Below the pieces are notes generated by a model that saw only the letters and a program-made list of their open reading frames with translations, was not told the DNA's origin and searched no databases. Source: Oscillospiraceae bacterium (lineage in GTDB: Bacteria; Bacillota; Clostridia; Oscillospirales; QAMX01). Taken from it: DNA of 53,939 nucleotides. The stretch spans positions 1 through 53,939 of the forward strand of contig SVLY01000013.1 in assembly GCA_015067715.1 (NCBI GenBank), read 5' to 3'. The translations under genes were made by a program, and so were the position numbers. Position 1 is the first letter of the stretch, and each line of letters starts with the position of its first letter. Below are positions 8,472 through 20,104 of the stretch, in pieces.

Positions 8472-8785
8472 GTAGGGCGGGGGTTTACTCCCGCCGCAAT
8501 GAAGGATGCACCATACTTTGCTGATGAATAATGAATAATTGGTAGGGGCGATTTGAAAATCGCCCTATATTGCCGGGAGGGCGAGCGGGATATAACGCCG
8601 GGAGCCCTCTCAGTCTCGCTTCGCGATCCAACTCCCCCGAGTGGGGGAGCCAAGTGGGTTGCGTACTGTATTTTTAACTTCTGCTAATCTTTACAGGCAC
8701 AAATCAAAAACCTCCCCCATCGGGGGAGATGCCCCAAAGGGGCGAAGGGGGCACGGGAGCCGAATGAATAATAAAATCGCGAAAG
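8472..8785 (+). repeat. Long intergenic mosaic repeat, copy A
   Basis: About 314 bases nearly identical to copy B (10619-10901), in the same orientation. It is built from several palindromes: GGCGGGGGTTTACTCCCGCC, GGGGCGATTTGAAAATCGCCC, CTCCCCCGAGTGGGGGAG and CTCCCCCATCGGGGGAG. Copy A carries ~26 extra bases in the middle, near 8575-8602. It has no coding capacity. It resembles MITE-like intergenic repeats common in Clostridia; no transposase is nearby. Confidence 0.8.
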
Positions 8786-8896: not shown

Positions 8897-8924
8897 ACTG
8901 TTTTAGTGAAAGGTGGATTTAAAA

Positions 8925-10535
8925 ATGGCAATAGAGAAATCGGTGAAAGAGGAATACCTCAATTTGCTGACTCAAAAGTATATGGATATGCTGTTTTATT
9001 TCAGTCTTAAAAAGACGGGAGACAGTTTTGAGGCAGAAAACCTGGCTCAGGATATTTTGCTTAATATTATTACCTCGCTTGAGAAAGGTAATGAGCCGAT
9101 AAATTTTGAGGCGTGGGTTTGGGGAATCGCCCGTAACCGTTACAGTGTATGGGCGAAGGTTAAGCATAATCGAAATGAATTTTTCGTAAGCCCGGATCCT
9201 GGAGATCATGGGATTTCAGATGAAACAGCAAATACAGAAAACAAGGTTATTGATAGTGAAGACTTAAATTTGCTCAGAAGAGAGCTTGCCTTTGTTTCAT
9301 CGGAATATCGCAATATTGTAGTTGCCTATTACATAGAGGACAGAAAAATAAGAGATATTGCTGTTTCCTTGGGGCTTCCTGAAAGCACGGTAAAGTCTAA
9401 GCTGTTTCGTGCCAGAAAAATTTTGAAAGAAGGTATGAATATGTCAAGAGAATTTGGTTTAAGAAGCTACAAACCCGGAGACGTTGTTTTTGCCGCAAGC
9501 GGTTCTCAGCCGAGCGGTTTGCCATGGAAAGCAGTTCGAAGAAGTTTGCCGAAAAATATATTGCTTGAATTAGATAACAATCCCCTTACGATAGAGCAAT
9601 TGGCTATCGAATGTGGCGTTGCTATGCCCTATATCGAAGATGAAGTTGAATTGCTTTTGGATGCAACACTACTTAAAAAGGTCGGCAACAAATATGTAAC
9701 AAACATTTTTATTGCCGGCAAAGAATGTCAGTATGAGATTTGGATGGCACAGAGAGAACGTTCGAAAGAGCGAAGCCAAATGATAGATACTGTTGTTACT
9801 GATTCAATTGCCGGTTTCCGCGAAGCAGGAATCGTTAAAAACAATATGAGTGATAACGACCTGAAATGGTGGGCGGTGATTTTTGCGGTAGATTGCTTTG
9901 TGAAGAGTCTTGATGGGTATGATATTTATTATCCCGAAAAACGTTCAAATGGAGAAGCGTGGGGATTTATAGGGTATGAATTATATGATGAGCCCGAAAA
10001 AACTTCAATGGGGCACAACGGTTCCGGTGATGGCACAGCAATGTTTTGGACGTATAAAATCGGGGATGACTCTTTGAATCTTTGGGACAGGGCAGGTGAA
10101 ATGGGGTATACTCACGCGCGCTTCTTCGCAGATGTTCTTAAGAACAACCGAAATTATTCTGAGTTTTCGGAAAACGAAAGAGCGGCTTGGAAAGATATTG
10201 AAAACCGGTTTGCGCATTTGGATGAGGACGGAAACATTGTTTCTGATATTCTTGTTTTAGCCGGTGACGCAAAGCAGAAGTGTGTAGAAATCTTACAATC
10301 ACATCCACTGGCAACAGAACTGAAAGCGAACTTCAAATCCGCTTATGATGATACTGTTAAGATCCTTAAAAGGTACAGTCATCCTGTTTTGGAAAAACAG
10401 CTTACATACTGTGCATCAATGATTATACTGAATACACGAATGATGACAGTGCATGATGAGATTTTGGCGAATAGACTTACTGTCCCCGAAAAGCCTGATG
10501 AGAGCACGATTGCAATGTGGATAGAATACAAATAA
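8925..10535 (+). CDS. ECF-type sigma-70 factor with a winged-helix-like and a large unknown C-terminal region
   Basis: 536 residues, nearly three times a normal ECF factor. Residues 1-80 look like sigma region 2 (FEAENLAQDILLNIIT, FEAWVWGIARNRY). Residues ~115-175 look like region 4, with the helix-turn-helix IRDIAVSLGLPESTVKSK. A segment near 205-260 (TIEQLAIECGVAMPYIEDEV, then a beta wing ending GNKYVTNIF) resembles a winged helix. The remaining ~275 residues are Trp- and acid-rich and I do not recognise them; they may sense a ligand or partner. I chose ATG 8925 because AAAGGTGG (8909-8916) is well spaced for it; a GTG at 8913 lies within that site. No anti-sigma gene is adjacent. The gene is AT-rich and sits alone between direct repeats A and B, which suggests transfer. 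Confidence 0.75.
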   Translation: MAIEKSVKEEYLNLLTQKYMDMLFYFSLKKTGDSFEAENLAQDILLNIITSLEKGNEPINFEAWVWGIARNRYSVWAKVKHNRNEFFVSPDPGDHGISDETANTENKVIDSEDLNLLRRELAFVSSEYRNIVVAYYIEDRKIRDIAVSLGLPESTVKSKLFRARKILKEGMNMSREFGLRSYKPGDVVFAASGSQPSGLPWKAVRRSLPKNILLELDNNPLTIEQLAIECGVAMPYIEDEVELLLDATLLKKVGNKYVTNIFIAGKECQYEIWMAQRERSKERSQMIDTVVTDSIAGFREAGIVKNNMSDNDLKWWAVIFAVDCFVKSLDGYDIYYPEKRSNGEAWGFIGYELYDEPEKTSMGHNGSGDGTAMFWTYKIGDDSLNLWDRAGEMGYTHARFFADVLKNNRNYSEFSENERAAWKDIENRFAHLDEDGNIVSDILVLAGDAKQKCVEILQSHPLATELKANFKSAYDDTVKILKRYSHPVLEKQLTYCASMIILNTRMMTVHDEILANRLTVPEKPDESTIAMWIEYK

Positions 10536-10618: not shown

Positions 10619-10901
10619 GTAGGGCGGGGGTTTACTCCCGCCGCAATGAAGAATGCACCAAACTTTGCGAATGGATAATGAACAATTGGTAGGGGCGATT
10701 TGAAAATCGCCCCATAATGCCGGGAGCCCTCTCAGTCTCGCTTCGCGATCCAGCTCCCCCGAGCGGGGGAGCCAAGTGGGTTGCGTATTATATTTTTAAC
10801 TTCTGCTAATCTTTACAGGCACAAATCAAAAACCTCCCCCCATCGGGGGAGGTGCCCCAAAGGGGCGAAGGGGGCACGGGCGCCGAATGAGATCGCGAAA
10901 G
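10619..10901 (+). repeat. Long intergenic mosaic repeat, copy B
   Basis: About 283 bases nearly identical to copy A (8472-8785) in the same orientation, so A and B bracket the sigma-factor gene as direct repeats. Differences are scattered single bases plus the ~26-base segment present only in A. The last shared word is ATCGCGAAAG. Confidence 0.8.
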
Positions 10902-10947
10902 CAAATGAATAATTGATCCGTAGGGACGCCCTGGGAGGGGCGTCTGA

Positions 10948-11080
10948 AATAGTCCGCCGGATCGAGGCTCGTGTTACAATAGGGCAAACCGTTGGAAGCC
11001 CGCATAAACACTGGGTTTTTTGTTAGTTTGCCCTATTGAACACAAGGGTGACGGAGTTTTGGCGGTTTTTATACATAGCA
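10948..11080 (+). repeat. Promoterless fragment of the spoVT-5'-end repeat family (copy 0)
   Basis: Begins with AATAGTCCGCCGGATCGA, identical to codons ~6-10 of spoVT (19582-19599), but the upstream promoter and start codon are replaced by a GGGACG palindrome. It continues with the family tail GTTACAATAGGGCAAACC. A perfect 12-base inverted repeat, AATAGGGCAAAC (10978-10989) and GTTTGCCCTATT (11026-11037), could form a long hairpin. The same tail follows copies 1 and 2. Confidence 0.7.
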
Positions 11081-11107
11081 AAAGCGAGGTGAAATTCACC
11101 TCGCCGT
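11081..11107. terminator. GCGAGGTG-family hairpin, probably two-way terminator
   Basis: GCGAGGTG (11084-11091) and CACCTCGC (11097-11104) around a 5-base loop. The stop codon of the reverse-strand gene (11096-11098) lies within it. Upstream A residues give a T run on the reverse strand. Confidence 0.65.
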
Positions 11108-11662
11108 CTTTTCACAAATCAATTTTCCGTTGAAATCTATTTCATAGTAGTTTTTTTCAAAATCAAATAACTTTATTCTATCATTACATAGCTCAAAGGC
11201 TTTTGTGTTATCGAGAGTAACAAAAATATCTCTTGCTGAAAACTTCCACTTAACCTTAAAATCAAAATCAAGCATAATAATTTCTATTTCACCATAAATG
11301 ATATATCCGCTTTCGACTTGATAGATAGAAAAATTGACACCAAGGGTATCAATGCTCTTAAAACACATGAGTTGTCCTGTTGAAACGTCGATTTTCAATA
11401 TAGTATCGTTTTGTAATATGGTCAAGTTGTTGTCAACCAATATGGCACAATCTTCAATACTGGAATAAAAATCTCCTATAATGGCAACTCTTATTTTCTG
11501 TAAGTTAGAATTTATTGTTAGTGAAAATATTTTTACAAAACTATTATCTGTTAAATCGTTTGGATTATATGTGTAATCATACTTTTTGTTGTCAGCAGAA
11601 TTGATAGTATATGTATTATCTTCTTCAATGCAAATATCATATAAACCATTTTTAATATGCAC
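11096..11662 (-). CDS. Hypothetical protein, beta-rich, unknown function
   Basis: 188 residues, read from a GTG at 11662 with AAAGGCGG upstream. A TATAAT at 11688-11693 (reverse strand) has a weak TTTACT -35 box 17 bases before it. The protein is rich in short beta-strand-like segments alternating with Asp/Asn turns (for example AILVDNNLTILQNDTILKID and IMLDFDFKVKWKFS), suggesting a small all-beta or WD-like fold. There is no signal peptide or membrane segment. I do not recognise the family. It is strongly AT-rich compared with the flanking core genes and lies between two repeat copies, so it was probably acquired. An immunity-type or orphan protein is possible, but nothing visible shows it. 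Confidence 0.6.
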   Translation of the reverse strand: MHIKNGLYDICIEEDNTYTINSADNKKYDYTYNPNDLTDNSFVKIFSLTINSNLQKIRVAIIGDFYSSIEDCAILVDNNLTILQNDTILKIDVSTGQLMCFKSIDTLGVNFSIYQVESGYIIYGEIEIIMLDFDFKVKWKFSARDIFVTLDNTKAFELCNDRIKLFDFEKNYYEIDFNGKLICEKTAR

Positions 11663-11718
11663 AGAATCACCGCCTTTGTTTAATTATAGCACATTCCGTT
11701 TTAAAAGTAAATCTTGCA

Positions 11719-11747
11719 GTATAATTTCCCACGAGTTACAAATAATA
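11719..11747 (+). promoter_or_regulatory. Sigma-G-like (forespore) promoter of the copy 1 mini-unit
   Basis: GTATA (11719-11723), 17-base spacer, AATAATA (11741-11747). This fits the forespore pattern of a GHATR-like -35 and CATNNTA-like -10 with one mismatch. The same boxes with the same spacing stand before copy 2 and before the real spoVT, while the spacer bases differ. Confidence 0.55.
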
Positions 11748-11781
11748 GTATCACGATTTGAATTATAAGGAGTTTATATAT

Positions 11782-11844
11782 ATGAAGGCAACCGGAATAG
11801 TCCGCCGGATCGAGGAATGCGTTATAATAGGGCAAACCGCCTGA
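11782..11844 (+). pseudogene. Truncated spoVT 5' end: 20-codon mini-ORF (copy 1)
   Basis: Reads MKATGIVRRIEECVIIGQTA and then stops. The first ten residues equal the SpoVT N-terminus; the rest is new. It has its own ribosome binding site (AAGGAG, 11767-11772), so it could be translated. A terminator-like hairpin lies at 12004-12038. It is either a broken gene remnant or a short peptide/leader gene. Confidence 0.6.
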
Positions 11845-12003
11845 AACCCGCATAAAAACTATGGTTTTTGCTGGTTTGCCCCACCCGACGTATTGGTGTC
11901 AAAAACGGGTTTTGGCGATTTTAGAAAGGAGCGAAAATCATTCTAAATATGCGTCAGAGATCCATACTCTGTTGCAGCCAAAACTAAAGCTTCAAACTGT
12001 CAC

Positions 12004-12038
12004 AAAGCCGGATGAGATTTATGCCTCGTCCGGCTTTT
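12004..12038 (+). terminator. Terminator-like hairpin before the TetR gene
   Basis: AAAGCCGGATGAG (12004-12016) pairs with CTCGTCCGGCTTT (12025-12037), giving a strong stem that ends in TTTT. The only forward-strand transcript it could end is one from the copy 1 promoter, predicted at about 290 bases. Confidence 0.65.
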
Positions 12039-12164: not shown

Positions 12165-12866
12165 GTGATACGAGTAGACAGAAAAGAACTTACTCGCAGT
12201 GAGATTGTTCGGGTTGCGGCTAACTGTTTTTTGAATGACGGTTACACCAAAACGACAGTAAACTCTATGTGCAAGAAATTGAATATGAGTCCCGGTAATA
12301 TGACCTTTCATTTTCCGACCAAAGAGCATATGCTATCAGAGCTGGTTGAAATACTTTGCAAGTATCAGTGGAAGATGATGGAGGATGAAGCCAAGGACGG
12401 ACACAGCTCCATCATGGCGAAATGTCTGGAGCTGCTGACCATTGCTTCTGCCTGCGAGCAGGATGAAGTGGCAAAGGATTTCTTTCTGTCCACCTATCGA
12501 AGTGAGCTGTGTATGGAGTTGATCCGCAAGAGCGATACAGATCGAGCCAAAGAGGTGTTTAAGAAATACTGTCCCGACTGGTCAGATGAGAATTTCTCGC
12601 AAGCGGAAACCTTGGTTTCAGGCATTGAGTATGCTGTGTTTTTCACCACTTCCGACTCCGCACCGTTAGACGTTCGGGTAGCAGGAGCGCTCCGAACGAT
12701 CCTTTCGATCTATAATGTACCCAGGGAAATTCGGGAGCAAAAAATCAAGAAGGTGCTTTCGATGAATTATCAAAAGCTGGGTATTGATACCTTAACGAAG
12801 TTCCGGGAGTACGTAGATCAAACAACCGAACAGGCTTTGTTTGACCTGCTGAAACGAAAGAATTAA
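12165..12866 (+). CDS. TetR/AcrR-family transcriptional regulator
   Basis: 233 residues. The N-terminal ~60 residues form a TetR helix-turn-helix: TRSEIVRVAANCFLNDGYTK, then MCKKLNMSPGNMTFHFPTKE. The all-helical C-terminal part would bind an unknown ligand and dimerise. Start: GTG 12165, with GAGGT at 12151-12155. It is first in a probable operon with the S23 gene and the large surface protein, which it may control. Its stop codon (12864-12866) lies inside the left inverted repeat of the S23 insertion, so that insertion happened exactly at the gene's end and left it intact. Confidence 0.85.
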   Translation: MIRVDRKELTRSEIVRVAANCFLNDGYTKTTVNSMCKKLNMSPGNMTFHFPTKEHMLSELVEILCKYQWKMMEDEAKDGHSSIMAKCLELLTIASACEQDEVAKDFFLSTYRSELCMELIRKSDTDRAKEVFKKYCPDWSDENFSQAETLVSGIEYAVFFTTSDSAPLDVRVAGALRTILSIYNVPREIREQKIKKVLSMNYQKLGIDTLTKFREYVDQTTEQALFDLLKRKN

Positions 12867-12896
12867 ATGCAGAATGCAGAGTGCAGAATGCAGAAT
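12864..12896 (+). repeat. Left terminal inverted repeat of the S23 element
   Basis: TAAATGCAGAATGCAGAGTG and onward: iterations of TGCAGAATGCAGA. It is complementary, with few mismatches, to 13253-13285. Together they bracket the S23 gene. Confidence 0.75.
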
Positions 12897-12908
12897 GAGG
12901 AACGGGTA

Positions 12909-13253
12909 ATGGATAATATTATTGAAACGAAGAGTTTTGATTTTGCAGTAAGAATTGTAAAACTCTATAAGCTTTTATGTGAAGAAAAACATGAGTTTGT
13001 ACTATCGAAACAGCTGCTTCGAAGTGGAACAAGCATCGGTGCCAATGTTGCGGAAGCGCAAAAGGCACAAACAAAACCTGATTTCAACGCAAAGATGAAC
13101 ATTGCATTGAAAGAGGCAAACGAAACGCATTATTGGTTGAAATTGTTACATAAGACAGAATATTTAACAAACAAAGAATTCACAAGCATTGAAGCCGATA
13201 TCGACGAAATCATCGCTATATTGGTATCCATATGCAAAAAAAACAACAACTAA
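12909..13253 (+). CDS. Four-helix-bundle protein (S23 rRNA intervening-sequence type, PF05635/TIGR02436)
   Basis: 114 residues from ATG 12909; an upstream in-frame ATG at 12867 lies in the inverted repeat and only adds repeat-encoded residues. Family features are SFDFAVRIVKLYKLL, LSKQLLRSGTSIGANVAEAQ, FNAKMNIALKEANETHYWLK and a C-terminal IDEIIAILVSI helix. The family was first seen in 23S rRNA intervening sequences and is also found as free-standing genes and as Avd of diversity-generating retroelements; the free-standing form has no settled function. Here it is alone, with no reverse transcriptase. It is framed by TGCAGAATGCAGA inverted repeats, which suggests the gene moved as a unit into the TetR/surface-protein operon. 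Confidence 0.85.
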   Translation: MDNIIETKSFDFAVRIVKLYKLLCEEKHEFVLSKQLLRSGTSIGANVAEAQKAQTKPDFNAKMNIALKEANETHYWLKLLHKTEYLTNKEFTSIEADIDEIIAILVSICKKNNN

Positions 13254-13285
13254 TTCTGCATTTTGCATTCTGCACTCTGCATTTA
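13253..13285 (-). repeat. Right terminal inverted repeat of the S23 element
   Basis: Reverse complement reads TAAATGCAGAGTGCAGAATG and onward, matching the left arm at 12864-12896. It ends 15 bases before the surface-protein start. Confidence 0.75.
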
Positions 13286-13300
13286 CTTGGAGGAAACGAT

Positions 13301-16300
13301 ATGAAAACGAAAAAACAATTTACAAACCGCATACTTAGTCTTGTGCTGGCACTTGTGATGGTGGCAGGGTTACTGCCGATGAATGTGCTTAAAGCGAGTG
13401 CGGCGGATTCTTCAACTGAATCCGTAACGATTGATTTGGCTACTTTAACGCAAGACATTCTTTTGGGAGAGAATCACACCTATTCGCTCGACGGCGGTGC
13501 AACCTATACAGAATATGTCGGAAACCTGATTTTTACCGGAACGACCGCATATTCCATTATGGTCAACGACGGTGCAGGCACCCACGACATAATTTTAGAT
13601 AATGTAAGCATGAGCAACAAAAATAAGAATGGAAACATCAAGATTGATGCGGGCGAAGTTCTGAATCTTACGCTCAAGGGAACAAACACGCTTTCGCAAA
13701 CCGGAGGCAACCTCTCTAATTGTGCTCCGGCTATCAACCTTGGCGTAGGAGCAACACTTACGGTCACAGAAGCAAGCACCGGTGTCCTGAATGCACGAGG
13801 CGGGTATGCTTCTCCTGCAATTGGCGGAAGATGGTATTTCACGGTTAACATTTACGGTGGCACAGTCAATGTAAGTCCCAACAAAATTACCGGTGGAGGA
13901 ATTGGATTTATATACAACGCGGCCAATACGAGCCCAACGAACATTCATATAAAGAATGCGGTTGTCAATGCGTCGGGTGAAGGTGGCTATGCTGCAATTG
14001 GTGGCGGCAAAGCGGTTTACACCGATGGATCTGACGTCAATATTACAATAACAAACTCTACCGTTACCGCCAAAGTACCATACGATGGCGTTGCGGCGAT
14101 CGGAGGCGGAGTAGACGATAAGAATACATACCATGTCAAAATTGAAAATTCTGTTGTGAGTGCAACAGCAGGTATGTACTACGGAGCAGCGATTGGTGTT
14201 TCCCATACCGGAACCGTAGGAAATATTGAAATTATCAATTCCGTTGTAACAGCAAAAGGAGGTAATCAAGCAGCCGGTATCGGCGGAGGTCCGAAGACCA
14301 ATATAGGAAATATTCTGATTCAAAATTCCACGGTAACCGCAACCGGAGGTGATGGTGCCGCCGGCATCGGCGGAGGTGCCGAAAACAAGGTTTCGGAAAA
14401 TGATAAGGTAACGATTATCGGAAGTAATGTTCATGCCAGCGGAGGCACCGGAACAGTTCATTACGGACGACAAGGCACGGCATTCCCGATCCGGAATCAT
14501 AACGGGGACGATGTCGCATTGACAAAAATTACCCTGCAAGGTGTAAGCCGGGATGTGAAGGTAACAAAAATTTCAACAGCAACCGGTTATGAAGATATTG
14601 ACATTATGACCATCGGAGGTGTTCTGTATATCTACTTGCCGGAGGGTGAAAGTCCTACGAAAGTGATCGCCAACGGTCAGGAATATGTTGGAACCGTAAC
14701 GGATAAGGTCGGCACCTTTGTTTTTGAGCACACCTGTGAGGTCGGAGAAAAAGGTACGCCTGCATCTTGTGGGAAGTATGCGGTTTGTGGACTTTGCAAT
14801 CAGGACTTTGGCGGGATGCTTTCACACGACTATGTGTATTCGGCCAGCGGAAATGTGCTTACGGAAAGCTGCTCAAATTGTGGACACAACGAAACAGCAA
14901 CACTGAACGCTGACCAAGCATATGTCTATACAGGAGCGGCAATTACCAACGCTGTTGTGAAATATTCTGACGGATGGCAGGGAGAGAGACCTACCGAAAT
15001 TAGCTACGAGGGCAACATTTCGGTGGGAACAGCCACTGCCAAAATTGAGATAGAAGGCAAACAAATCAGCACCACATTTGAAATCAAGACAGTAGATATC
15101 AACGGTGCAACGGTTACGCTCGATCCCGAAAATGGAACTTACAACGGCAACGCTTTTGTTCCAAACATTATAGTTACATTAAACGGTGTAACCCTTATAA
15201 AAGACACCGATTATACCCTTTCCTGGGATAAAACAGGCTTTATAAACGCAGACAACTACATTGCTACCATTACCGGTAAGGGCAATTTCACCGGTACCCA
15301 AACCGCGACGTTCACCATTGACCCAATAGAACTGGATGAGACCAATACAGTTGTTACGCTTGATCAGGACACCTTTGTTTACGACGGCACGGAGCATAAG
15401 CCTACCGTAGCAGTAACCTTTAATGGCGCTACGCTGACGGAGGGCGTTGATTATCGGGTATTCTATTCCCAACCAATGAAGATGGTGAACGGCAAGGTTG
15501 ATAAATGGTTCGGTGATCATATTACCAGCATGGAATGTGTGGATGTGGACGGCGATTATTACGCGGTAGTGATCGGCCTTGGCAACTTCCGTACAAAGGA
15601 TGCCTTTACTCTGTATGCTAACTTTGTGATCGAGAAAGCCACCGTCACCGAGCCCACCATTGCCGGCAAACCCTACACCGGTGCTGTGCAGACAGCGGAT
15701 ATCACAGATACAGAACTCTACACAGTCGTTAAAAATGACGGCGGTACGGGCGTAAAGCAGAACGGTACTTACGATGTTGTTCTGGAATTGAAGGACCCCG
15801 CGAACTATAAGTGGAGCACCACAGACAATGCACAGGTTACTCTACAATTTGCGATTACACAAGGGACAAATGAATGGACGGTCGACCCGTCTATCAGCGG
15901 CTGGACTTACGGTGAAGCTGCAAATACGCCTGTGGGTGAAGCGAAATTCGGTGATGTTTCCGTGGAATATTCCGGCACGACGAACGGCGGAGCAGCTTAT
16001 AACAGTACAACTGCACCGACCGAAGCGGGCAATTATAAAGCCACCTTTATCGTACAGGGAACGGAAGACTACAAGGGCCTTGAAACATCGGTTGATTTCA
16101 CCATCGCAAAGAAAGCCGTTACTGTGACCGCAAATGATGCAAGCAAGACCTACGGCGAAAGCGATCCTGCACTGACCTATACCCATACGGAATTGGTCGG
16201 ACAAGATGCATTGGATATTACCGTATCCCGTGCAAGCGGTGAAAACGCAAACACCTATACCATCACCGTAAGTCAGGCAGAAGGTGCAAACCCGAACTAC

Positions 16301-18049
16301 GAGATCACCTTCAAGACTGGAACGTTCACCATTCACAAGGCACCGCTAACGATAACGGCAGAGGACAAAACGGCCACCTACGGCGACGCTGTTCCGACCT
16401 ATACTGTGAAGTATGAGGGCTTTAAAAACGGCGACGACAAGGACGATCTCGGCGGAGAGCTTGCATTCTACCAAACCTACAACCGGTTTGACGATGCGGG
16501 CGAGTATGATATCATGCCTCACGGCTTGACCTCCGATAATTATGTGATCGCCTACAACTTTGGCAAACTGACCGTATCCCCGAAGCCGATTACCGTTACT
16601 ATTGAGGATGCATCAAGCCCCTACGGCGAAGCCCTTACCGAGCTGAAAGCGACCGATAACGGCATCGTGAACAACGATAAGGACGTTTACAGCCTTGCCA
16701 CTACCGCAACAGGCGCAAGCAACGTCGGCAAGTATGCGATCACCGGTACTTCTCTTGACAGCAATTACGATGTTACCTTTGTAAACGGTGAATACGAGAT
16801 CACCAGGCGTGAGATCACGATTACCGTTGATGCAAAGAACACCGTTGTCAACACGACACTTCCGACCTACACCTACATGGTAGAAGGTCTGGTGGGCGTT
16901 GATATGCTCGTAACAGAGCCTACTCTTACCTGCAATGCGAACATTGCACTTATTGGTGAGTATGACATTACGGCAACCGGCGCAGATGCAGGCGGTAACT
17001 ATTCCATTAAGTATGTACCTGCCAAGCTGACTGTTCTGGCTGATAACGCAGTGGATGCGGCGGCAGGTTACACCGAGGAACTGAAGGATTATGATCCTGC
17101 AACCGTAACCAGCGAGGACAAGGCGGCGCTGGAAGAAATGCTTTCCGAGATCAACACCATCCTTGCTGACGAAACGACCACCGACAACGGTAAGAAGGCG
17201 TTGGAGGAAGTTAAGGAACAGGTTGAAAAGCTGATCAAGGAAATCACCGATGCAGCCAAAGCAACCGACACCGAGAATACGGTCAAGGTCGAGAATGTCA
17301 CACCGGAGAACGTAACCCCGGAAAACAAGAACGATCTGGAAGGTGCAAAGGCAGATCTCGAAAAGGCTCTTGAGGACAACGGCGGCAACTACACCGAGGA
17401 CGAAAAGAAAGCCATCGAGGACGAAATCAAGCGTATCGATGATGCTCTCGAAGTGATCGGCAATGTAGAAGCAGTCGAGGAAGTCATCTCCAAGCTGCCT
17501 GCGGTCGATACCGTGAAGCCTGACGATGAAGAAGCAATCAAGGCGATTACCGATGCACAGACTGCCTACAACGCTTTGTCCGACTACGAGAAGTCCCTTG
17601 TGGATGAAGCTGCCAAGGCAAATCTGGATAAGCTGGTGGCCGCTCTTGTGGCCTACGACATCGTAGAGGGCGACGGCAGCTCCTGGACGGAGGACAGCGA
17701 CCATGGCATCACCTTCGTCGTCAACGGAAAGTTTGGCAAGTTCGTTGGTATCAAGGTTGATGGTAAGGATGTTGACAAGGCTAACTACGAGGTAAAGGCC
17801 GGCAGCACCATCATCACTCTGAAGGCATCCTATTTGGATACCCTCGCAGTAGGTGAACACACCATTACCGTGGTCTACACTGACGGTAGCACCGATGGTA
17901 CTTTCAATATCCACGCAAAGGCAAATTCTCCTGCAACCGGAGATAACAGCCATGTGTTCCTCTGGATCGCACTTCTCTTCATCAGCGGCGGCGCAGTTAT
18001 CACATTGACCGTTGTTGAGATAAAGAAAAGAATGGCAAGCAAAAGATAA
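13301..18049 (+). CDS. Large cell-wall surface protein: beta-helix, MBG repeats, SPATG sorting signal
   Basis: 1582 residues from ATG 13301 with TTGGAGG upstream. Residues 1-35 are a signal peptide (basic start, hydrophobic core, ASAA cleavage region). Residues ~40-410 form a glycine-rich right-handed beta-helix with repeated turns of AAIGGG/AGIGGG type. A Cys-rich segment (~475-525; CGLCNQDFGG, CSNCGH) may bind metal. Residues ~550-1240 hold bacterial-Ig/MBG-type repeats (for example AEDKTATYGDAVPTYTV). A helical, Glu/Lys-rich stalk spans ~1250-1450. The end is SPATGD near 1543, a membrane helix and KKRMASKR, a sortase signal of the SPxTG type. It should be covalently fixed to peptidoglycan and act as an adhesin or matrix protein. 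The 3' half is visibly richer in GC than the 5' third. No sortase gene is in the window. Confidence 0.85.
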   Translation: MKTKKQFTNRILSLVLALVMVAGLLPMNVLKASAADSSTESVTIDLATLTQDILLGENHTYSLDGGATYTEYVGNLIFTGTTAYSIMVNDGAGTHDIILDNVSMSNKNKNGNIKIDAGEVLNLTLKGTNTLSQTGGNLSNCAPAINLGVGATLTVTEASTGVLNARGGYASPAIGGRWYFTVNIYGGTVNVSPNKITGGGIGFIYNAANTSPTNIHIKNAVVNASGEGGYAAIGGGKAVYTDGSDVNITITNSTVTAKVPYDGVAAIGGGVDDKNTYHVKIENSVVSATAGMYYGAAIGVSHTGTVGNIEIINSVVTAKGGNQAAGIGGGPKTNIGNILIQNSTVTATGGDGAAGIGGGAENKVSENDKVTIIGSNVHASGGTGTVHYGRQGTAFPIRNHNGDDVALTKITLQGVSRDVKVTKISTATGYEDIDIMTIGGVLYIYLPEGESPTKVIANGQEYVGTVTDKVGTFVFEHTCEVGEKGTPASCGKYAVCGLCNQDFGGMLSHDYVYSASGNVLTESCSNCGHNETATLNADQAYVYTGAAITNAVVKYSDGWQGERPTEISYEGNISVGTATAKIEIEGKQISTTFEIKTVDINGATVTLDPENGTYNGNAFVPNIIVTLNGVTLIKDTDYTLSWDKTGFINADNYIATITGKGNFTGTQTATFTIDPIELDETNTVVTLDQDTFVYDGTEHKPTVAVTFNGATLTEGVDYRVFYSQPMKMVNGKVDKWFGDHITSMECVDVDGDYYAVVIGLGNFRTKDAFTLYANFVIEKATVTEPTIAGKPYTGAVQTADITDTELYTVVKNDGGTGVKQNGTYDVVLELKDPANYKWSTTDNAQVTLQFAITQGTNEWTVDPSISGWTYGEAANTPVGEAKFGDVSVEYSGTTNGGAAYNSTTAPTEAGNYKATFIVQGTEDYKGLETSVDFTIAKKAVTVTANDASKTYGESDPALTYTHTELVGQDALDITVSRASGENANTYTITVSQAEGANPNYEITFKTGTFTIHKAPLTITAEDKTATYGDAVPTYTVKYEGFKNGDDKDDLGGELAFYQTYNRFDDAGEYDIMPHGLTSDNYVIAYNFGKLTVSPKPITVTIEDASSPYGEALTELKATDNGIVNNDKDVYSLATTATGASNVGKYAITGTSLDSNYDVTFVNGEYEITRREITITVDAKNTVVNTTLPTYTYMVEGLVGVDMLVTEPTLTCNANIALIGEYDITATGADAGGNYSIKYVPAKLTVLADNAVDAAAGYTEELKDYDPATVTSEDKAALEEMLSEINTILADETTTDNGKKALEEVKEQVEKLIKEITDAAKATDTENTVKVENVTPENVTPENKNDLEGAKADLEKALEDNGGNYTEDEKKAIEDEIKRIDDALEVIGNVEAVEEVISKLPAVDTVKPDDEEAIKAITDAQTAYNALSDYEKSLVDEAAKANLDKLVAALVAYDIVEGDGSSWTEDSDHGITFVVNGKFGKFVGIKVDGKDVDKANYEVKAGSTIITLKASYLDTLAVGEHTITVVYTDGSTDGTFNIHAKANSPATGDNSHVFLWIALLFISGGAVITLTVVEIKKRMASKR

Positions 18050-18100: not shown

Positions 18101-18124
18101 CATTCACAAAAAGTAAATCAGCCA

Positions 18125-18153
18125 GTATAACTCCACTTTGTTTGCAGATACTA
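18125..18153 (+). promoter_or_regulatory. Sigma-G-like promoter of the copy 2 mini-unit
   Basis: GTATA (18125-18129), 17-base spacer, GATACTA (18147-18153). Spacing equals that at 11719 and 19407. Confidence 0.55.
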
Positions 18154-18202
18154 ACAGCGTAATTTGTAAAATTATTGTAGGGTGCAGGAAAGGAGTAAAT
18201 AT

Positions 18203-18277
18203 ATGAAAGCAACCGGTATTGTACGCTGTATAGAGACTCATGTTATAATAACACGAAAATCGCTTAAAGCCCCATAA
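18203..18277 (+). pseudogene. Truncated, diverged spoVT 5' end: 24-codon mini-ORF (copy 2)
   Basis: Reads MKATGIVRCIETHVIITRKS and four more residues, then stops. Against the first ten spoVT codons, six differ, and five of those changes are silent third-position changes; only one alters a residue (Arg9 to Cys). That pattern suggests descent from a coding sequence under selection. AAAGGAG at 18189-18195 is a good ribosome binding site. The predicted transcript runs from ~18160 to the terminator at 18357. Confidence 0.6.
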
Positions 18278-18330
18278 ACACTGGACTTTTGAGTTTGTTT
18301 TTGAAGAAAATTTTTAACATATACATAGCA

Positions 18331-18357
18331 AAAGCGAGGTGAGCCACCTCGCTTTTT
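18331..18357 (+). terminator. GCGAGGTG-family intrinsic terminator of copy 2
   Basis: AAAGCGAGGTG, a 3-base loop, CACCTCGC and TTTTT (18353-18357): a textbook intrinsic terminator on the forward strand. It may also serve the convergent MBL gene. Confidence 0.8.
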
Positions 18358-18393
18358 GTTCGGCACGCAGAACCATCCCCCCTGTGCCGGCTA

Positions 18394-19263
18394 TCAAATC
18401 ATAAGTTCCACTGTACCTTCGAAGGCTTTGTAAACTATGTTGGCTTTCGACTCAACACACAAATTTGCTATGCAACCCTCGTGCCTCTCGTAAAGTTTTG
18501 AATGCATGGCGCGATATCCTGCCGCAGAAATGGGCATAAGGACAACTTGTGGGTCTGTATATCTATAAAAATCGACACAATATGAATCGCACAGAGCGTG
18601 ATGCGGCATCTGTAAAATATCACATTTTAGTTTGTTTGCGTAGCGCCAAGCAGTAATCTGCATACTGCGTTCGTAGGCATCTCCGGTAACCATGGCTTTC
18701 TTATCTTTGCCCTTAACGGTAAAAATAAGGGAACAGAAGTTGGAATTTCCTCCCGCAGTGTTTAGTATTGAACAATCATCCGGAACATACAGAAATTCAA
18801 GGTCTATATCATCCAATGCAAGAATTTCATTTCGTTTTGGCTGGTGGTACTCTGCACCAAGCAGTTCGCACACTTTTAACATTTCGTGGTTCTCTTTTGC
18901 CAGACTGTTTGCTTCGCCGTTTCCACCGCAAAAATCGTCAGGAAACCAATAGACAAGTTTATTAACCGTAATACGTTTTTTTAGCTCGGAATCTTCGCTG
19001 ATTCCTTTTATTGCACCGTAATGGTCAAGATGTGGATGGGAAATTATCCAATAATCTATTTTAGGTGTTTTGGTATTTGTCTGCGCCTCCAATAGTTTAA
19101 CAAAGTCCTCAGCATCATTAGGAAACCCGCCGTCAATGACAATCAGTCTTCCGTTTTCTGTGACAATGATATTTCCCATTCCGGCTGCCGTCCAACCTGC
19201 ATCAGCATCAAAAGGACCGTCATATAAAGAGGCGTGTGTCATATACTGAATAAATTTTGCCAT
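18394..19263 (-). CDS. MBL-fold metallo-hydrolase
   Basis: 289 residues. The metal-binding motif HPHLDH lies in WIISHPHLDHYG (near residue 75). Further typical positions are IDGGFPND, TGDAYERS and PHHALCDSY, supplying the remaining metal ligands. The overall look is of ComEC-like or general MBL hydrolases; the substrate is unknown. There is no signal peptide. Start ATG 19263 has AGGAG closely upstream. It stands alone between copy 2 and the genuine spoVT leader, is more AT-rich than the core genes, and is part of the accessory region. Confidence 0.75.
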   Translation of the reverse strand: MAKFIQYMTHASLYDGPFDADAGWTAAGMGNIIVTENGRLIVIDGGFPNDAEDFVKLLEAQTNTKTPKIDYWIISHPHLDHYGAIKGISEDSELKKRITVNKLVYWFPDDFCGGNGEANSLAKENHEMLKVCELLGAEYHQPKRNEILALDDIDLEFLYVPDDCSILNTAGGNSNFCSLIFTVKGKDKKAMVTGDAYERSMQITAWRYANKLKCDILQMPHHALCDSYCVDFYRYTDPQVVLMPISAAGYRAMHSKLYERHEGCIANLCVESKANIVYKAFEGTVELMI

Positions 19264-19406
19264 AGCAGTTTCTCCTGAAAAGAATATGAAATAAAAAACA
19301 AATAATACTATTAAGATGCTCTTGATCTAACTATAGCGTACTGCTTGTAACAATTTTTGCCATAACGATATTATATTGTATTTGATTCAAAAAGTAAATA
19401 GCAACA

Positions 19407-19435
19407 GTATAAATTCCCTTTATTCACAAATACTA
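19407..19435 (+). promoter_or_regulatory. Sigma-G-like promoter of spoVT
   Basis: GTATA (19407-19411), 17-base spacer, AATACTA (19429-19435). In Bacillus subtilis spoVT is transcribed by forespore sigma-G, so a promoter of this type is expected. The motif is repeated at 11719 and 18125. Confidence 0.6.
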
Positions 19436-19457
19436 ACATCACGATTTGAGATTATAT

Positions 19458-19530
19458 GTAGGGCGGGGGCTTGCTCCTGCTGCCGAATTCCGCACAAAAA
19501 CAAAACGGCGGCACCAAGTCACCGCCCTAC
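19458..19530. repeat. 73-base palindromic element inside the spoVT leader
   Basis: Ends in inverted repeats GTAGGGCGG (19458-19466) and CCGCCCTAC (19522-19530). Copy 1 lacks it (its leader runs from CACGATTTGAATTAT directly to AAGGAG), so it is an insertion between promoter and ribosome binding site. It would form a hairpin in the mRNA leader. Confidence 0.75.
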
Positions 19531-19567
19531 AAAGGTATCTGTAATTAGGCAAAGGAGTTAATATATT

Positions 19568-20104
19568 ATGAAGGCAACCGGAATAGTCCGCCGGATCGAT
19601 GATCTGGGCAGGATCGTGATACCGAAAGAGATAAGAAGAACGCTGAAGATACGTGACGGGGATCCGCTGGAGATATACACCGACAGGGAGGGCGAGGTGA
19701 TTTTTAAAAAGTACTCTCCCGTGGGGGAGATGGGGGCTTTTGCGGCACAGCTTTGCGAGTCGGTTGCAAAGGTGGCTGACTGCACCGTTGCCGTCACCGA
19801 CAGGGATACGGTCATTGCCGTTTCCGGGCCGGACAAAAAGCTGCTTTCCGACAAGCCCCTTTCCGAAGAGGTGGAGAACATCATTGAATCCCGCAAGCCC
19901 TATTTCGATACGGACGGGGGAAGGGGCGTGAAAATGACCCGCGCAGGGGAGAAGACCGCCTTTGCGGCTGTGCCCATCGTTGTCATGGGCGACACGACGG
20001 GGTGTGTGCTGATGGCGGGGGACGAGAACGCCTTCTGCACGGAAAGCGAAAAAAAGCTTGCTTCAAGCGTTGCGGGCTTTCTTGGCAGACAGATAGATTC
20101 CTGA
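19568..20104 (+). CDS. spoVT: Stage V sporulation protein T, AbrB-family forespore regulator
   Basis: 178 residues, the normal SpoVT length. Residues 1-50 are the AbrB swapped-hairpin DNA-binding domain, nearly identical to the B. subtilis protein (MKATGIVRRIDDLGRIVIPK, then EIRRTLKIRDGDPLEIY). Residues ~55-178 are the GAF-like domain. SpoVT tunes sigma-G-dependent genes late in sporulation, in the forespore. AAAGGAG precedes ATG 19568. The leader contains a sigma-G-like promoter and a 73-base palindrome. Two truncated copies of its 5' end lie upstream at 11.7 and 18.1 kb. Confidence 0.95.
   Translation: MKATGIVRRIDDLGRIVIPKEIRRTLKIRDGDPLEIYTDREGEVIFKKYSPVGEMGAFAAQLCESVAKVADCTVAVTDRDTVIAVSGPDKKLLSDKPLSEEVENIIESRKPYFDTDGGRGVKMTRAGEKTAFAAVPIVVMGDTTGCVLMAGDENAFCTESEKKLASSVAGFLGRQIDS

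Follow-up and report, generated by a model that had tools for sequence, protein, structure and literature searches.

A displaced spoVT front end in a clostridial cassette array as the probable scar of site-specific integration

In the window (the whole 53,939-nucleotide stretch of Oscillospiraceae DNA that we analysed), the sequence starting at position 11704, here called unit 1, is an old spoVT front end, comprising the promoter and the first ten codons, that was pushed upstream by an insertion of foreign DNA. We are confident that unit 1 is an attL-type junction, a scar left when foreign DNA integrated site-specifically at the spoVT 5' end, and that it belongs to an array of cassettes; our confidence in how such arrays are shuffled is moderate. 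The 20-codon open reading frame (ORF) in unit 1 is incidental and not a gene. The parts involved are of known kinds: ICEs with triplet serine integrases, circle-junction promoters and SCC-like arrays.

Unit 1 and its surroundings in the window

The initial annotation had described unit 1 as a self-contained mini-unit with a sigma-G-like promoter, an RBS, a short ORF and a terminator. The individual features were all confirmed (Table 1): the promoter boxes (GTATA at 11719-11723, a 17-base spacer and AATAATA at 11741-11747), AAGGAG, the ORF (ATG at 11782, 20 codons, TGA at 11842-11844), the strong hairpin and the 32-base identity with spoVT. This identity is exact between 11782-11813 and 19568-19599; for a 20-mer, zero matches were expected in 100 shuffles. 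Rather than standing alone, however, the unit forms one end of an integrated cassette.

The window contains three units and an intact spoVT, and a comparison of the whole assembly placed all strong copies of the unit sequence on the window's contig. The leader of intact spoVT (19405-19456) was 81% homologous to that of unit 1, with an additional 75-bp insertion. This insertion (19457-19531) is a MITE-like TGTAGGGCGG..CCGCCCTACA inverted repeat between the promoter and the RBS of intact spoVT. The three copies other than spoVT (10946-11033, the 11704 unit and a second complete one at 18203) have approximately 70-100 downstream bases in common that are absent from spoVT. In unit 1, the P' arm spans 11814-11881; its GGGCAAACC..GGTTTGCCC inverted repeat is not common to all P' types. 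The terminator-like hairpin of unit 1 was also found in G030 and L135. Another terminator-like hairpin, TACATAGCAAAAGCGAGGTGAA..TTCACCTCGCTTTT, is conserved approximately 140 nt past the unit start at 10980-11105, 18240-18360, L085, L096, L121 and other loci, and TACATAG from this hairpin region occurred in 54 of 117 units, compared with approximately three expected. The 1605-aa MBG-repeat surface protein among the cassette cargo (13232-18049) ends in an LPXTG-like C-terminal anchor (SPATGD plus a membrane segment).

Table 1. Positions of unit 1 and of the other array features in the window
Feature	Position	Strand	Basis or remark
Older unit without leader and ATG, truncated	10946-11033	+	Sequence comparison
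Single-gene cargo of the cassette preceding unit 1, 188 aa, no Pfam match	11096-11662	-	
Divergent sigma-A-type promoter TTTACT-17-TATAAT of the opposite-strand cargo gene	11683-11711	-	Consensus match only
Displaced spoVT leader	11704-11781	+	Homologous to 19405-19456 and to unit leaders in other genomes
Sigma-F/G-type promoter boxes GTATA-N17-AATAATA	11719-11747	+	Conserved in unit leaders
RBS AAGGAG	11767-11772	+	Window sequence
spoVT codons 1-10 (MKATGIVRRI), left half of the integration target	11782-11811	+	Identical to 19568-19597
GA crossover dinucleotide	11812-11813	+	Boundary of host- and element-specific DNA in groups A, B, C and Y; also at attR
GTTATAATA, P' arm of the element attachment site	11821-11829	+	GA-N7-GKTATAATA in all selected units
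Inverted repeat of the window's P' type (GGGCAAACC..GGTTTGCCC)	11830-11881	+	Fold z = -3.4
Terminator-like hairpin closing unit 1	12004-12036	+	-22.1 kcal/mol, z = -6.4
Cargo of the unit 1 cassette: TetR-type regulator, 23S_rRNA_IVP-type protein, 1605-aa MBG-repeat surface protein	12165-18049	+	
Third unit (MKATGIVRCIETHVIITRKSLKAP, then stop), 24-codon ORF at 18203	18105-18300	+	
Cargo MBL-fold hydrolase	18394-19263	-	
Leader of intact spoVT, 75-bp inverted-repeat insertion at 19457-19531	19405-19567	+	
Intact spoVT, array anchor	19568-20104	+	

Complete elements split spoVT at codons 10/11

Comparison between genomes located the boundary between host and element DNA. In four groups of elements (A, B, C and Y) recurring in different hosts, the element end was constant while the leader and codons 1-10 varied by host. 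Host variation at synonymous positions reached the third base of codon 10, and the switch fell at GA (ATH/GA, codons 10/11). Both ends of complete elements were recovered in 11 genomes. These elements carry large serine recombinases, usually three in tandem, and split spoVT at codons 10/11. Their left end consists of the host promoter and codons 1-10 followed by GA-N7-GTTATAATA, as in the window; their right end is TTGACA-N6-GA followed by spoVT codon 11.

At locus L101, a large serine recombinase (PF00239 plus PF07508) lies between the unit junction and spoVT. Eleven further genomes or records with units encode relatives of it at 43-78% identity, in most cases as the final member of a tandem of three. 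At 11 of the 12 loci, spoVT codon 11 begins 67-207 bp past the recombinase, with no spoVT start; a pattern search yielded the same attR at the twelfth. Exactly one attR was present per genome or record (12/12), and zero in controls. In plasmid and phage collections, searches with the spoVT-site recombinase returned distant relatives only (at most 43% identity). For the GGGCAAACC-type P' of the window, no exactly matching P arm was found. Co-variation between the P and P' half-sites was weak, with 50 out of 2000 re-pairings being equally good.

The G081 contig contains both ends; the approximately 62.7 kb that separate them include conjugation genes and three recombinases. Three tandem recombinases at the end by the target gene, as in triplet-serine-integrase ICEs, characterize the complete elements in most genomes with a close relative, and the conjugation module (VirD4-type, TrbL_2 and CD1107-like) was present in G081, the one element examined end to end. 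Triplet serine integrases that disrupt genes are known from streptococcal ICEs at mutT, traG and hsdM (PMC4701971). Like these ICEs, the spoVT elements have a trio of tandem large serine recombinases at one end together with Tn1549/CD1107-like conjugation genes, disrupt their target gene and use a very short overlap; unlike them, they target codons 10/11 of spoVT and reside in gut Clostridia. We did not find spoVT described as an integration site in the literature searched.

At the attR loci (L206-L217), complete elements leave spoVT without a start, and excision would restore it; spoVT could thus be under a developmental switch of the kind known from other elements that interrupt sporulation genes. 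One would expect such ICEs to turn off a sporulation regulator and perhaps, by excision, to turn it on again.

A putative promoter divided between the element ends

When the right and left ends were joined in silico, TTGACA-N17-TATAAT resulted in 11 out of 11 elements, the counterpart of GTTATAATA providing the -10 half. The search pattern had largely dictated TATAAT. The -35 box, by contrast, was free to vary, since the right ends had been located by their nearness to the recombinase. The two arms of an excised circle would form a consensus sigma-A promoter, split by integration and presumably active. It points into the left-end genes, and a promoter split in this way would be a simple rule for when the genes of the element are on. 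A precedent is TnpX of Tn4451/Tn4453, where, as far as the title of Lyras and Rood (2000) cited in PMC13023037 tells, excision likewise joins the ends and creates a promoter; the spoVT-element promoter differs from the one indicated there in reading into left-end genes and not into a right-end recombinase.

Units form cassette arrays upstream of spoVT

We searched for a pattern with spoVT codons 1-10 fixed and GA-N7-GKTAYAATA directly behind them; at least 118 genomic stretches from gut and rumen Clostridia fitted it, as did one contig of a viral collection. The pattern was present in 25 of 394 sampled species of the order, and the reversed control pattern had zero matches. A unit profile gave 235 matches in the fetched loci, counting intact spoVT starts and partial motifs. 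In the 27 loci with an intact spoVT in the fetched stretch, every unit lay upstream of spoVT on the same strand.

Units in relatives often formed head-to-tail arrays, tandem on one strand. The 80 unit-to-unit or unit-to-spoVT intervals measured 659-6421 bp and mostly held one gene each; ORFs of at least 100 aa in these intervals were on the opposite strand in 69 cases and on the same strand in 50. The cargo was diverse, with 117 Pfam families matched among 121 proteins, and included methylases, specificity subunits, Fic, AlbA-type proteins, and HTH and AraC regulators. The arrays are easily recognised and constitute a source of defence and accessory genes (restriction-modification, Fic, regulators and surface proteins) in uncultured gut bacteria. 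An age gradient along the arrays was unconvincing (14 degenerate units distal and 8 proximal). The unit leaders of L168, L200 and L202 contain inverted repeats, for example TCTCCTTGTTTTACA..TGTAAAGCAAGGAGA, which could mask the RBS of read-through transcripts while leaving it free in those started at the forespore promoter.

SCC arrays at rlmH are tandem islands of the serine-recombinase type that carry diverse cargo and rebuild the end of a host gene. The spoVT arrays are alike in all three respects: elements stand in tandem at one gene end, and the gene is restored. They differ in occupying the 5' end with its promoter, where SCC occupies the 3' end, and in having cassettes without a recombinase; tblastn of all unit loci detected recombinases at L101 and in the flank upstream of L193 only, whereas an SCC-type array would have a ccr-type recombinase in at least some members. 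Integron arrays are ordered arrays of mostly single-gene cassettes, each with a recombination site. The spoVT arrays share the single-gene format, the recombination site and the order, but their fixed anchor is spoVT. Neither an integron integrase nor an attC-like site was recognised in them, the targeted searches having covered large serine recombinases.

How cassettes may move between hosts

Comparison shows that elements with large serine recombinases cross over at the GA of codons 10/11. Integration strands the host spoVT promoter, RBS and codons 1-10 beside the P' arm (GA-N7-GTTATAATA...), leaving spoVT from codon 11 on beside the P arm (...TTGACA). Such junctions are arranged in tandem in the window and in many relatives, where they delimit small cassettes, most of them with a single gene. 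A cassette carries a fresh spoVT promoter and start at its spoVT-proximal end; the last copy therefore keeps spoVT intact, unlike in complete elements, and earlier copies of the leader and start are displaced upstream with a terminator behind them. Cassettes may be gained, lost and exchanged mainly when the repeated leader/start sequences recombine with one another or when recombinases act on them in trans.

Several hosts have cassette DNA in common. Identity was 86-89% for L085/L116, L105/L155 and L123/L172 (for the last pair, over the first 585 bp), and the leader end of a cassette was 90% identical in L164/L185. By contrast with the 86-90% for cassette and leader, spoVT from codon 11 on was only 62-66% identical between these hosts. 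Between the sister species L085 and L096, whose SpoVT proteins are 96% identical, L085 has two extra cassettes between the shared cassette and spoVT, and the left homology breaks at GA. On the right side, codons 4-10 were host-like in two comparisons, and the common cassette DNA seems to stop close to ORF nucleotide 11 instead of at GA. Array exchange may therefore use homology in the leader/ATG region.

No large serine recombinase was found within the window, and no PF07508 match in its genome (92% completeness); the window's cassette thus lacks the recombinase, together with the conjugation genes, that an ICE has inside it. The cassettes are therefore either resident or mobilised, in trans or through homologous recombination. 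Among 25 array genomes, none had a close relative of the spoVT-site recombinase.

A variant of the integration reading, differing in how cassettes move, is dedicated gene capture: cassette circles would be inserted at spoVT by a recombinase in trans, as in integrons or SCC, and not shuffled by homology. The regular cassette format, each cassette having its own promoter and terminator, speaks for it, as do the whole cassettes common to distant hosts and the homology of P' with the P' of serine-recombinase elements. Since array genomes lack a cognate recombinase and exchange points do not fall consistently at GA, we consider this variant possible but unlikely. Somewhat less doubtful, and offered tentatively, is a wider reading in which the 5' end of spoVT is a gene-cassette platform of gut Clostridia. 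Single-gene cassettes, each with a new forespore promoter and spoVT start, would be captured and exchanged across families, seeded and perhaps trans-mobilised by serine-recombinase ICEs of the same site, tying genome innovation to sporulation.

The mini-ORF is incidental

The initial annotation had proposed a forespore-timed RNA of about 290 nt that carries a SpoVT N-terminal peptide and could act as a decoy leader, a peptide or a small RNA, or be an inert remnant. Unit 1 retains intact boxes, an RBS, a start codon and a terminator-like hairpin. Moreover, the boxes are those of spoVT and are conserved across units: GNATA-N15-18-NNATAMTA occurred in 78 out of 117 unit leaders, compared with 0.9 expected from shuffles. 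With its boxes intact, the unit may plausibly be transcribed in the forespore as far as the hairpin; this part of the proposal is supported, and a peptide or small RNA function found no support.

Neither the frame nor the peptide was conserved in other genomes. Indeed, 27 of 120 related units stop directly after codon 11 or 12, and the free positions beyond codon 11 lacked codon periodicity. The conserved stretch of units extends beyond the ORF, whose stop is due to chance. The closest homologue of the unit 1 cassette, in L135, where unit 1 and TetR also form a cassette, is approximately 85% identical in DNA over 1 kb, but its short peptide reads MKATEIVRRIDVRSIIIQKP where that of unit 1 reads MKATGIVRRIEECVIIGQTA (each followed by a stop), which marks the mini-ORF as incidental. 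An Rfam scan returned one tRNA only and no match for the unit. Pairing was weak and type-specific: P' showed a slight excess of pairing, with no structure common to the P' types. The units thus have neither the conserved frame nor the covarying structure of a leader-peptide or small RNA gene, and the attachment site accounts for the conserved P'. We therefore regard a functional small RNA or leader peptide, with the SpoVT N-terminal peptide as decoy or regulator, as very improbable. The unit is a recombination junction; of the options originally listed, an inert remnant came nearest to the truth.

An alternative history, in which the spoVT 5' end was merely duplicated locally in tandem and then decayed, would fit copies that are local, on one strand and upstream of spoVT, but it is scarcely credible: the 70-100 bases common to all non-spoVT copies recur in complete elements of other genera, element-specific ends common to several genera already contradict it, and the unrelated genes between copies are found in other species as whole cassettes.

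A second site in spoVT

Integration into spoVT also occurs elsewhere in the gene. In L269 (6273-8456), a different large serine recombinase is fused in frame to SpoVT residues 28-177, giving a 727-aa ORF; this fusion marks a second integration site at codon 33/34, with a mirrored arm sequence present. Thus, integration recurs at two positions of spoVT, codons 10/11 and codons 33/34, making the gene an integration hotspot. Other array units have a short tail (xLTxxEKF...) joined to codons 1-33 of spoVT. Since the L269 recombinase reads into spoVT with a mirrored arm sequence, these tails are probably the displaced C-terminus of that recombinase. Reciprocal spoVT(1-33)-tail ORFs were present in L066, L075, L076, L098, L146, L159, L189 and L198. 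Serine-integrase ICEs at rumA exchange the 3' ends of target and integrase (PMC4701971), and the second spoVT site makes the same kind of exchange, as in the L269 fusion, but with spoVT as the target and with short chimeric ORFs inside arrays.

Elsewhere in the window, direct repeats at 8472-8751 and 10619-10873 (segments of 160 and 108 nt, 87-93% identity), approximately 2.1 kb apart, flank a sigma-factor-like gene at 8913-10535.
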